Shown one piece after another: positions 2,024-59,453 of a stretch of DNA of 64,000 bases. Position numbers and translations under genes: made by a program. The DNA lies in assembly GCA_030615605.1 (NCBI GenBank), contig JAUWYY010000004.1, positions 124,001 through 188,000 on the forward strand. Reading direction: 5' to 3'. The notes under the pieces are model-generated. The model made no database searches. It had not been told where the DNA came from and saw only the letters and a program-made list of their open reading frames with translations. Source of the stretch: a bacterium. GTDB lineage: Bacteria > Armatimonadota > Zipacnadia > Zipacnadales > Zipacnadaceae. Each line of letters opens with the position of its first letter. Positions within the stretch are counted from its first letter, which is position 1.

Positions 2024-2052
2024 ATTATAGCATAACTGGAGAATATTGTCAA
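2024..2052 (-). promoter_or_regulatory. Perfect-consensus sigma-70 promoter for the pilin array
   Basis: Reading leftward, TTGACA (2052-2047), a 17-base spacer and TATAAT (2029-2024) match both consensus hexamers exactly. Transcription would begin near 2017, giving a leader of about 100 bases before the first small ORF. No recognised riboswitch could be identified in that leader. The remaining DNA up to 2325 shows nothing further. Confidence 0.85.
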
Positions 2053-22575: not shown

Positions 22576-23355
22576 ATGAACACATTCGAATTTGTGCGGA
22601 GTTCGCTCCCGGTGGCGGTGGCCGCTGCTAGTCCCGTTGCTATAGAGATGGCACAATACTGTCACTTCACCGTGCGTGAGCAAGTCGGGGTGGGCGTAGT
22701 TGTCCTGGCTGGGGCACTAGGCGTACATTGGGTCTCTATGCAACGTCGGGAAGAGAAGCATGAAACGGTACGCAAACAAGAGAAACTGGAACGAGTCTTG
22801 AACACAGTGGTGCTTCGAACGGCCGAGAGGGAGCACACACTAGATCCAATAGGTGACTTGGACGTTCGGATGAATGTTATGATACCGTATCGCCGACGAC
22901 TTAGGGGATTCGTCTACCAGACAGCTTATGATAGGCCAGCGAGGCACAAACCTCGCGAGGATGTCATACTACATATGTACTGCTGCAGTAGGAATTCGAA
23001 AGGGCGCTCCTCGCTGTGGGCAGGATGGAAATCGGGGGAGGGATGCGTCGGAAGACTGTGGAAGCAAGGAGACCATATTGTGGCAGCAGCACTGCCTGAG
23101 GGAGCAGATTTGAATGACTATAACTTGACTAAGCGACAAGCGCAATACACTCGGGATACACGATGCCTGATATCGGTCGCTATCACGGAGGGCATTGGCC
23201 CAGACTTGAGGCGAAGAGGCATACTCAACATTTCGAGCAGCAACGAGTACGCCATCGAAGCCTGGACCGAAGACGGCCAACCCCGCCAGTCGGTTACTTC
23301 CTACCTCGTAGAACTCGCACATACAATTAACGACGAGAATCTCTTGCCAGCCTAA
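22576..23355 (+). CDS. Membrane-anchored GAF-like sensor protein
   Basis: A 259-residue protein. Residues about 12-55 hold one or two hydrophobic segments, then a charged coiled linker (RREEKHETVRKQEKLERVL), then a C-terminal domain with GAF-like features: SGEGCVGRLWKQGDHIVAAAL, an RDTRCLISVAI strand and RGILNISSS. A cytoplasmic ligand-sensing role is inferred; no output domain is attached, so a partner would be needed. GGAGG nine bases upstream sets the ATG. The DNA is A/T-richer than its neighbours, and its position between unrelated genes suggests acquisition. Confidence 0.6.
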   Translation: MNTFEFVRSSLPVAVAAASPVAIEMAQYCHFTVREQVGVGVVVLAGALGVHWVSMQRREEKHETVRKQEKLERVLNTVVLRTAEREHTLDPIGDLDVRMNVMIPYRRRLRGFVYQTAYDRPARHKPREDVILHMYCCSRNSKGRSSLWAGWKSGEGCVGRLWKQGDHIVAAALPEGADLNDYNLTKRQAQYTRDTRCLISVAITEGIGPDLRRRGILNISSSNEYAIEAWTEDGQPRQSVTSYLVELAHTINDENLLPA

Positions 23356-23793: not shown

Positions 23794-24870
23794 TCATATA
23801 TTACGCCGGCGCAGCTTCGCCGCTAGACCGAGTACGCCCAGAGCAAGCAGCACCGTGGTGGTTGGCTCGGGGGTGAAGACGAATACATCGTGGCCAGCGT
23901 CCAGCCAACTCCACGAGCCGGGGCGCAGTTGCAGGTAGGTCTCTTCCCACTCCCAATGCTGTGTCGGCGGGGGAACGCCGATATAGGTACCGGACAGCAA
24001 AGCGTTATCCTCGGGCCACCAGTAGTAGTCCTTGACGCCCCCGTACGAAGATACATAGCTCGTCGTCGTCGCTCCATAATCCACAGCAGCCTGGAACCAT
24101 TCGTCACTGGTCATAGCATCCGCAGCGGTCTCGGCCAGCGCGAGGGTGAGCAGGCCGACATAGTCCGGGTAGTCACCGCTTATTCCGATACCGAGACCTT
24201 GCTCAGGCACGGTCATCATCACGTACAGGCCGTTGTTGCTGGCTGGTGCGCTGGCGTTCATATCGTTGCTGCCGCCCACGAACCCGCCAGCGTGACAGGT
24301 ATCGTAGATGGTCAGCACGGTGGCGGAAGTATGCAACTCAAAGTCATGGAAGGCGGCCGCAATCTGGTCATCGTTAACGTATGTGTATGCCAGTCTTCCG
24401 ATAGTCTCCTCGCCCGCGTAAGGCTCACTGTCGTAGGCGGCGTCGGGCGCGCCGTCGGGGCGATACTCGTTCGGGTGCGGGTCGTTATCAGCAGGGCCAG
24501 GTACTGTCCCGTCGTCAGCATCAGAATCGGTTGAGCCTGTGCCGCCGTGGGCCATATAATGGAAGATTAGCAGATCGTCTTCGCCCACATAGCCGGCGAA
24601 GCTGGCGATACCGCTAACGATATCGTTACCGGGGGCGTTATCGTGGAGGACCACGTGTATGCCCGTATCCCAGGTGGCCGAGCCGGTCACGCTGACGGGA
24701 CTGTACGCGCTCCACTCCGGGAAGTCGTCGAGTGCGTCCCACATATAGTCGTTGGAGTAGGTGAAATCATCGCAGGCGACGCCGTAATAGTAATAGTCGG
24801 CTCCCGCCGGCAGGGCCAGCAGGACAGCAAACATCACCACGGTGGCAGCCGCTATCGCTATCTTCTTCAT
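23794..24870 (-). CDS. Secreted caspase-like (C14-type) protein with PEP-CTERM anchor
   Basis: A 358-residue exported protein. Residues 1-24 are a signal peptide (MKKIAIAAATVVMFAVLLAL). The catalytic His is in FHYMAHGG (His108) and the catalytic Cys in IYDTCHAGG (Cys192), the HG and DxCxxG pattern of caspases, metacaspases and gingipain-like peptidases. The C-terminus is a PEP-CTERM tail: PEP at 334-336, a hydrophobic segment and RRR. An exosortase would process it and leave it at the surface. The segment between His and Cys is rich in Asp, possibly Ca-binding. The promoter at 24912-24940 would start near 24905, which excludes the longer ORF start. Confidence 0.85.
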   Translation of the reverse strand: MKKIAIAAATVVMFAVLLALPAGADYYYYGVACDDFTYSNDYMWDALDDFPEWSAYSPVSVTGSATWDTGIHVVLHDNAPGNDIVSGIASFAGYVGEDDLLIFHYMAHGGTGSTDSDADDGTVPGPADNDPHPNEYRPDGAPDAAYDSEPYAGEETIGRLAYTYVNDDQIAAAFHDFELHTSATVLTIYDTCHAGGFVGGSNDMNASAPASNNGLYVMMTVPEQGLGIGISGDYPDYVGLLTLALAETAADAMTSDEWFQAAVDYGATTTSYVSSYGGVKDYYWWPEDNALLSGTYIGVPPPTQHWEWEETYLQLRPGSWSWLDAGHDVFVFTPEPTTTVLLALGVLGLAAKLRRRNI

Positions 24871-24911
24871 ATCTCTGAGAGATGCCGTACAAGAATCAAC
24901 TACACGCACGG

Positions 24912-24940
24912 ATTATATATCCAGCGGCGAGCGTGGTCAA
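24912..24940 (-). promoter_or_regulatory. Sigma-70 promoter of the caspase-like gene
   Basis: Leftward TTGACC (24940-24935), 17-base spacer, TATAAT (24917-24912). The expected start is about 35 bases before the ATG. The near-consensus hexamers predict strong expression. Confidence 0.82.
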
Positions 24941-25131: not shown

Positions 25132-25363
25132 CTACCGGTCGAGGTGTTTCCGTATGGCCTGGGCGGCGGCTATGCCAGAGGCCCGCTATCGGGCTCCGCG
25201 TCAGGCCGGCGCCGTCCCCGCAGGCATAGAGGCCCGCAACTTCTGTCTCCAGGTCGGTGGTTAGCGTCAGCTTGCCGTCGCAGAACGCACCTGCCCCACC
25301 GAAGCCCTCCGGCATGACCGACCCGCGACGGATTCTGTAGCCAAAAGCATACCTGAGCTCCGG
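25132..25363 (-). pseudogene. C-terminal relic of an NAD(FAD)-utilising dehydrogenase
   Basis: The minus strand encodes the end of a flavoprotein: PELRYAFGYRIRRGSV, GFGGAGAFCDGKLTLTTDLE, GLYACGDGAGLTRSPIAG. The last is the usual FAD-binding C-terminal motif (GLYACGDGAG). After SPIAG the frame shifts, and the expected SGIAAAQAIRKHLDR ending continues in another frame to a stop at 25132. Nothing upstream of about 25363 continues the protein. Both truncation and frameshift mark it as a pseudogene at the end of the ddl operon. Confidence 0.8.
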
Positions 25364-58490: not shown

Positions 58491-59453
58491 CTATCTGTGA
58501 GCCGTTAAATCACGTCCTGCTTGGATGAGCAGTTCGGCCGCCTTTTTCCACCGTTGCTGAACTGACCAGGTCAGCCAGTCGAAGCTTGTCCTGTTGCGAA
58601 ACCACGTCAGTTGGCGCTTGGCGAACTGCCTGATGTCGCGCTTGATCTCGGTGAGAGCTTCGTCCAGCTCGCCTCCGTGTTCCAGATGCTCCAGGAGGTG
58701 ACGATAGCCGATGGCTTGCATTGACTGCATCTGGCGATGGTAGCCAGCCCTGTGCAACCGTCGCACTTCGCCCGGCCACCCGCGCTTCATCATTTCGTCA
58801 ACGCGCCGCTCGATTCTCTCATACAGTAGTGCTCGGGGGCAGGTCAGCACGTAAGATAACATATTATACTTGACTGGGGGCGTCTCGTCAACGCACTGCT
58901 GGCCGGAAAGCGGCTGGCCGGTCAGCTCGTACACCTCCAGCGCGCGGACGATCCGGCGCAGGTCTTGTGGCTCGATGCGGGCAGCGGCCTCCGGGTCAAC
59001 TTCTCTCAGACGGTGATGCATCTTTTCGGTGCCCAGCTCCGCTGCCTTCTCTTCCAGGCGGTGGCGGGTTTGCTCATCGCGGGGACCGGGCGGAAAGTCA
59101 AAATGTTCGACGACTGCCTGGATATACAGTCCTGTCCCACCGCACAGGATGGGCAGCAGGCCGCGGCGATGAATGTCAACTATTGCCCGTTGCGCGTCTT
59201 GCTGAAACAGTGCCACATTGTAATCCTCATCCGGGTCAACGATATCAATGAGGTGGAATGCGGTCTGGCGCTGCTCCTGGGGTGTGGGTTTGGCGGTGCC
59301 GATATCCATTCCCCGGTAGATCTGCATCGAATCCGCCGAGATTATCTCCCCGCCGACCGCTCCCGCGACTTCAATAGCCGCAGCGGTCTTGCCTGTGGCT
59401 GTCGGGCCGGCAATCACTAGCAGAGGAATCGGGCTATCTTCCAGAATCATCAC
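58491..59453 (-). CDS. miaA: tRNA dimethylallyltransferase
   Basis: A 320-residue enzyme that prenylates A37 of tRNAs reading UNN codons. P-loop GPTATGKTAAAIEV, SADSMQIYRGMDIGTAKPT and PILCGGTGLYIQAVVEHFDF are family signatures. GTG at 59453 directly follows the mutL stop (TGAGTGATG), with an alternative ATG one codon later, so translation is coupled to mutL. Confidence 0.97.
   Translation of the reverse strand: MMILEDSPIPLLVIAGPTATGKTAAAIEVAGAVGGEIISADSMQIYRGMDIGTAKPTPQEQRQTAFHLIDIVDPDEDYNVALFQQDAQRAIVDIHRRGLLPILCGGTGLYIQAVVEHFDFPPGPRDEQTRHRLEEKAAELGTEKMHHRLREVDPEAAARIEPQDLRRIVRALEVYELTGQPLSGQQCVDETPPVKYNMLSYVLTCPRALLYERIERRVDEMMKRGWPGEVRRLHRAGYHRQMQSMQAIGYRHLLEHLEHGGELDEALTEIKRDIRQFAKRQLTWFRNRTSFDWLTWSVQQRWKKAAELLIQAGRDLTAHR

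Follow-up and report, generated by a model that had tools for sequence, protein, structure and literature searches.

A caspase-like peptidase with a signal peptide and a PEP-CTERM tail, predicted to be displayed by exosortase, in a bacterium of the class Zipacnadia

Caspases provide the protein-cutting fold behind cell suicide in animals, and their bacterial homologues have mostly been discussed as stress or cell-death enzymes. The cargo of the PEP-CTERM/exosortase system, on the other side of the present comparison, is largely without known function, and the proteins of such surface layers mostly have no recognisable domains. A 2012 survey covering 671 prokaryotic metacaspases placed 98 in the membrane (many of these probably carrying a signal peptide), 30 in the extracellular space, seven in membrane plus extracellular space and only seven in the cell interior, with 529 undetermined, and it raised the idea of surface or fratricidal roles for those that are extracellular or membrane-linked (PMC3501461). 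Given these figures, the preliminary description of the locus reported here overstated matters in calling caspase-fold proteases mostly cytoplasmic in bacteria. Secreted bacterial caspase homologues are already known; what is new is their predicted anchoring by way of exosortase and the recurrence of that arrangement. In the openly accessible literature we found nothing joining PEP-CTERM or exosortase with a metacaspase, and co-mentions of PEP-CTERM and "caspase" were seemingly incidental, as judged by title and term count. Since close relatives and a differently built second copy exist, the caspase-like arrangement with its predicted exosortase sorting is real and conserved, and it is apparently undescribed.

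The protein in question is encoded within a 64-kb stretch of DNA (hereafter, the window) from a member of Zipacnadia, a class within Armatimonadota recovered from anoxic sediments (PMC10290634). With the bacterial metacaspases/orthocaspases (C14B, e.g., GSU0716, PDB 3bij), it shares a predicted alpha/beta caspase-like fold, the His-Gly and Cys-His-x-Gly motifs of the dyad, a DDxL helix and the Asp cluster of the Ca site, and GSU0716 is its best match by both sequence profile and fold. However, it lies below the Pfam C14 threshold, bears a signal peptide and a PEP-CTERM tail, and belongs to a family with an insert (DEGST..RP..NDPxP..PY) and a C-terminal HWxWxExYxQLRP block of its own, both absent from the C14 domains aligned. 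In common with other PEP-CTERM/exosortase (EpsH) substrates it has the N-terminal signal, PEP motif, transmembrane helix and Arg cluster, and exosortases and exopolysaccharide (EPS) genes are present in the genome; the difference lies in the cargo, which here is a caspase-clan peptidase. By analogy, the closest functional counterpart would be the gingipains (C25), clan CD cysteine peptidases that are exported and held at the surface by means of a sorting signal at the C-terminus, although these belong to another family and are cargo of another sorting machinery (T9SS); Pfam C25 did not match the window protein at E 10.

The gene occupies positions 23794..24870 (-) of the window, stop codon included, and encodes 358 amino acids from an ATG at 24870. 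Sequence features indicate a putative signal peptide at residues 1-24 (24799..24870 (-)), which reads MKKIAIAAATVVMFAVLLALPAGA and is followed by DYYYY; it has a KK n-region, a hydrophobic core with hydropathy of up to 2.5 in 19-residue windows, and a cleavage site between AGA and D. Residues 25-332 make up an acidic mature domain, and residues 333-358 (23797..23874 (-)) form the PEP-CTERM tail, in which TPEP is followed by a hydrophobic helix and RRR; the protein scored 24.5 bits against Pfam PF07589 (gathering score, 20.7) and 19.1 against NCBIfam TIGR02595 (cut-off, 16). A sigma-70 promoter, TTGACC-17-TATAAT, lies upstream at 24912..24940 (-) and agrees with the consensus at 11 of 12 positions. 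Thus, the observation made in the preliminary description, of signal peptide, catalytic dyad and PEP-CTERM tail in one 358-residue protein with its own strong promoter, was confirmed. Sites of the form TTGACN-N(15-17)-TATAAT number three in the 64-kb window versus 0.02 expected, and further near-consensus promoters (TTGACN-N17-TATAAT) are found at 2024-2052 (-) and 58863-58891 (-). Among the homologues, comparable promoter boxes precede two genes (L015 and L013) and are missing from two others (L010 and L012). The ATG is favoured as the start because a longer reading from GTG (24909) would begin just past the -10 box, ahead of the point where transcription is expected to start. The neighbours of the gene are ileS, lspA, lgt, ddl and a gene for a type II secretion system (T2SS) F protein. 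Between the latter and the caspase-like gene, a 259-aa open reading frame at 22576-23355 (+) has no Pfam match, and at 25196-25321 (-) there is a remnant-like match to an FAD oxidoreductase, in fragments only, compared to 474 aa in the sister genome (L038:6304-7725). Contact-dependent killing, suggested in the preliminary description, or a role as programmed-death effector is argued by analogy with other caspase homologues and was raised for extracellular metacaspases in the 2012 survey (PMC3501461), but no immunity gene, toxin domain, delivery system or other secretion partner was seen beside the gene, in the window or at the homologous loci, and we consider such a function very improbable.

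Caspase-like character could not be established from the single protein. Pfam C14 (PF00656) gave no match to it even at E 10, the best C14 match within its family (hereafter, family 1: the window protein and six homologues) had an E value of 0.0049, and phmmer of the window protein against the PDB returned chance matches only. A direct search of the genome with C14 came up empty, missing two caspase-like proteins that were revealed only by the family profile. The profile search against C14 proposed in the preliminary description therefore failed for the window protein alone, but a profile built from the seven family-1 sequences matched GSU0716 (E 2.2e-9), metacaspase-4 (E 5e-6) and several further metacaspases, both catalytic blocks (His and Cys) falling in register. 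A profile of the six homologues, from which signal and tail had been removed, detected the core of the window protein at E 8.7e-64 compared to E 0.08 for the best of 500 shuffles, and homology between the window protein and the family is therefore not due to chance. NCBIfam NF047832 (caspase_w_EACC1; EACC1-associated caspases) matched weakly over the Cys region (E 1e-4), and its 21.8 bits against a cut-off of 140 place the window protein outside that family. We also modelled the structure with AlphaFold. From the seven family members alone the model was poor (pLDDT 39.5), its top six structural matches being 3bij and metacaspase 4, and it was replaced by a run on a 30-sequence alignment, which gave a pTM of 0.78 and a pLDDT of 68; since that alignment contained known C14 domains, this model is not fully independent. 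Foldseek comparison of the 30-sequence model to the PDB showed that all 50 of 50 matches with E < 1e-3 were clan CD structures, among them 3bij, metacaspases 9 and 4, legumain, MALT1 and caspase 9, at modest TM-scores of 0.4-0.5. With Pfam C14 unable to recognise the window protein on its own, it is the profile of the family and the predicted structure that carry its assignment to the caspases, and from the fold we infer a clan CD cysteine peptidase closest to the bacterial metacaspases/orthocaspases.

The predicted catalytic residues are His108 (HYMAHGG; 24547..24549 (-)), at the end of strand 3, and Cys192 (YDTCHAGG; 24295..24297 (-)), at the end of strand 4. This dyad, named in the preliminary description, is kept in all members covering the respective columns, and Cys192 is invariant (30/30). 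In the metacaspase TbMCA2, the Ca site consists of Asp173, 189, 190 and 220, and Asp211 lies in the proposed S1 pocket (PMC4357240). By alignment, the counterparts of the Ca-site residues are Asp119, Asp167, Asp168 and Asp203, none of which varies within family 1; Asp167-Asp168 (24367..24372 (-)) correspond to TbMCA2 Asp189/190, and the equivalence of Asp203 is a presumed one, as it lies 11 residues after the Cys, not seven. The conservation of this Asp cluster leads us to predict Ca2+ control for the family, and the enzyme is probably Ca2+-dependent. Asp190 (24301..24303 (-)), two residues before the Cys, aligns with TbMCA2 Asp211 and tentatively suggests a preference of the window protein for basic P1 residues. 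In the other six of the seven family-1 members, however, Gly or Ala stands at this position, so Arg/Lys specificity should not be generalised to the family.

The six homologues of the window protein, at 35-44% identity, bring the family to seven of the 41 genomes of the order; the six other genomes are Zipacnadia/WS1 (Armatimonadota), the named relatives being Candidatus Zipacnadia and WS1 bacteria. A single-protein search of the genome contig collection found nothing, whereas an alignment-based search did find relatives. Every complete homologue keeps signal peptide, domain and tail, and all seven members match PEP-CTERM at E < 1. One homologue, in sister genome G006 (L042:6083-7139; also L014 and L022), is split into two overlapping frames of 135 and 249 aa, through either a frameshift or an assembly error. 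Sister genome G001 has the same locus, with ileS, a dksA-like gene, lspA, lgt and ddl followed by the caspase-like gene, whose product is 37% identical to the window protein compared to 56-78% for the neighbouring genes; sequence comparison thus portrays the window protein as a fast-diverging, presumed surface protein. Such rapid divergence, together with one relative that has Cys-Tyr instead of Cys-His after the nucleophile, would suit a catalytically dead caspase-fold protein serving as a binding or structural module at the surface. However, His108 and Cys192 have been retained throughout a family whose sequence has otherwise largely diverged, and pseudo-enzyme status is unlikely. A conserved operon partner was sought and none was found, synteny being limited to the sister genome of the same genus. 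Viral contigs and plasmids contained no relatives, and there is therefore no sign of mobility. Ordinary C14 proteins exceeded the cut-off in 121 of 291 genomes of the phylum, and this survey found none in the genus or family of the window organism.

The preliminary description named two outcomes that would refute its reading, a fold that is not caspase-like and a genome without exosortase, and neither was observed. The modelled fold is caspase-like, and the genome encodes two exosortases (E 2.5e-62 and 5.8e-50), both with intact Cys/Arg/His motifs (PCSG/ECSG, NAAR/NVVR, FFH/MVH) and each with a DUF3485 (EpsI-like) gene nearby. Exosortase 2 lies within an EPS gene cluster, together with a sugar transferase gene and genes whose translations read as glycosyltransferase and sugar-nucleotide dehydrogenase. 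Adjoining it, L084:6199-6813 (+) encodes an exported protein with a PEP-like tail (PEP..SRRR) missed by PF07589. An exosortase is also present in six of the seven other Zipacnadia/WS1 genomes carrying a relative; none was found in G029, a homologue-bearing genome that is 93% complete. Anchoring and display of the window protein at the surface are accordingly predicted from its tail and this machinery.

The search for further PEP-CTERM substrates recommended in the preliminary description yielded five proteins over the cut-off in the genome, including the window protein. Three of the five are peptidases, namely two caspase-like proteins and a subtilase (S8; contig 12, L086:3985-5868 (-)), and sister genome G006 encodes a PEP-CTERM protein with a Peptidase_C39-like domain (L027:1495-2556 (-)). 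Such a set would suit a nutritional surface protease, one of several anchored peptidases with which a fermentative anaerobe mainly digests protein buried in the sediment, the enzyme then having no part in signalling or in the matrix. The anaerobic, marine-sediment habit of Zipacnadia agrees with this, and of 64 MAGs, 57 were found to have one or more extracellular peptidases, with S8A a common type (PMC10290634). However, clan CD peptidases usually process proteins with narrow specificity and do not serve for general digestion (Table 2 of PMC4357240), and the sporadic distribution of family 1 within the order would be odd for core nutrition; we regard a nutritional role as possible but not as the probable one.

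The second caspase-like protein (contig 11, 15047-15990 (-); L085:6039-6974) represents a paralogous family 2, with the motifs GHG and DMCYAG, an EF-hand-like loop (NSQDGYLYADE) and orthologues in two other genomes (L048 and L049). Its gene shares a contig with exosortase 2, and a polysaccharide export gene lies 1.2 kb from its start. The adjoining L085:4966-5724 (-) encodes an exported protein whose PEP-like tail (ELPP..RGRRR) was also missed by PF07589. The position of the family-2 gene is consistent with a maturation or self-processing enzyme that shapes the matrix by cutting other PEP-CTERM/EPS-layer proteins or itself. Outside the tail, the PEP-CTERM proteins of this genome and of relatives contain 1.3-6.5% Lys/Arg compared to about 7-12% for ordinary proteins, a composition that looks protective against a protease of this kind, but this scarcity may simply mirror an acidic extracellular composition, and the window gene itself lies outside any EPS cluster. 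A maturation role in this narrow sense can be entertained only tentatively. Lys/Arg depletion was also considered as a peptidase-specific signature of self-protection and was rejected, as non-caspase PEP-CTERM proteins of these genomes are depleted too.

Relatives from Desulfobulbaceae and other Deltaproteobacteria (L043-L046) carry GHGG/GHSG, D[AV]CYAGG, an EF-hand-like loop and a VP[LI]P-type tail; the region holding the EF-hand in these other groups is shortened in the window family. The 279-aa protein of a Desulfobulbaceae MAG (L043:7758-8594 (+)) exceeds both the C14 (28.4 bits; cut-off, 21.4) and the PEP-CTERM Pfam thresholds and matches NF047832 at E 2.6e-10; judged by these profiles, it is the cleanest proof that the combination of caspase and PEP-CTERM exists. 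An exosortase was seen in two of the four deltaproteobacterial genomes with a relative and in neither of the other two, including the MAG bearing L043. Among 395 genomes of the phylum of the Desulfobulbaceae relative, the sole match was the query genome itself.

Taken together, these results are best explained by an orthocaspase that is displayed by exosortase, probably depends on Ca2+ and has matrix or environmental proteins as its substrates for processing, and we consider this explanation likely. The signal peptide would take the preprotein across the inner membrane, where the C-terminal PEP-CTERM helix and Arg cluster would retain it; one of the two exosortases would then cut at the PEP motif and pass the enzyme to the cell surface or the exopolysaccharide layer. 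With sorting signals and machinery both present, export and exosortase cleavage are the most likely course, and fold and conservation make catalysis the most likely next step. Extracellular Ca2+, acting through the conserved Asp cluster, would probably activate the His108/Cys192 dyad, and the active enzyme may cleave matrix or environmental proteins, plausibly after Arg/Lys, with the second PEP-CTERM caspase-like protein and the PEP-CTERM subtilase acting alongside. Processing of such proteins by the window enzyme is plausible. Fold, dyad, export signal, PEP-CTERM tail, promoter and the exosortases of the genome all agree with the preliminary description, whose interpretation is partly supported. 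A more far-reaching proposal, which we put forward as conceivable though rather doubtful, is that there is an unrecognised class of exosortase-displayed caspase-clan peptidases comprising three or more sequence groups (family 1 and the EF-hand family 2 of Zipacnadia, and the VPLP-tailed deltaproteobacterial proteins), that they carry out Ca2+-triggered processing of the exopolysaccharide/PEP-CTERM layer, and that losing the S1 Asp has shifted P1 specificity in the majority of family-1 members.

The arrangement joins caspase-clan peptidases to the exosortase sorting signal, and it occurs in both paralogous families of a single genome as well as in Deltaproteobacteria. It supplies a concrete predicted enzymatic activity for a surface layer whose proteins are mostly without recognisable domains, and it presents a case of caspase-fold enzymes that probably work outside the cell.
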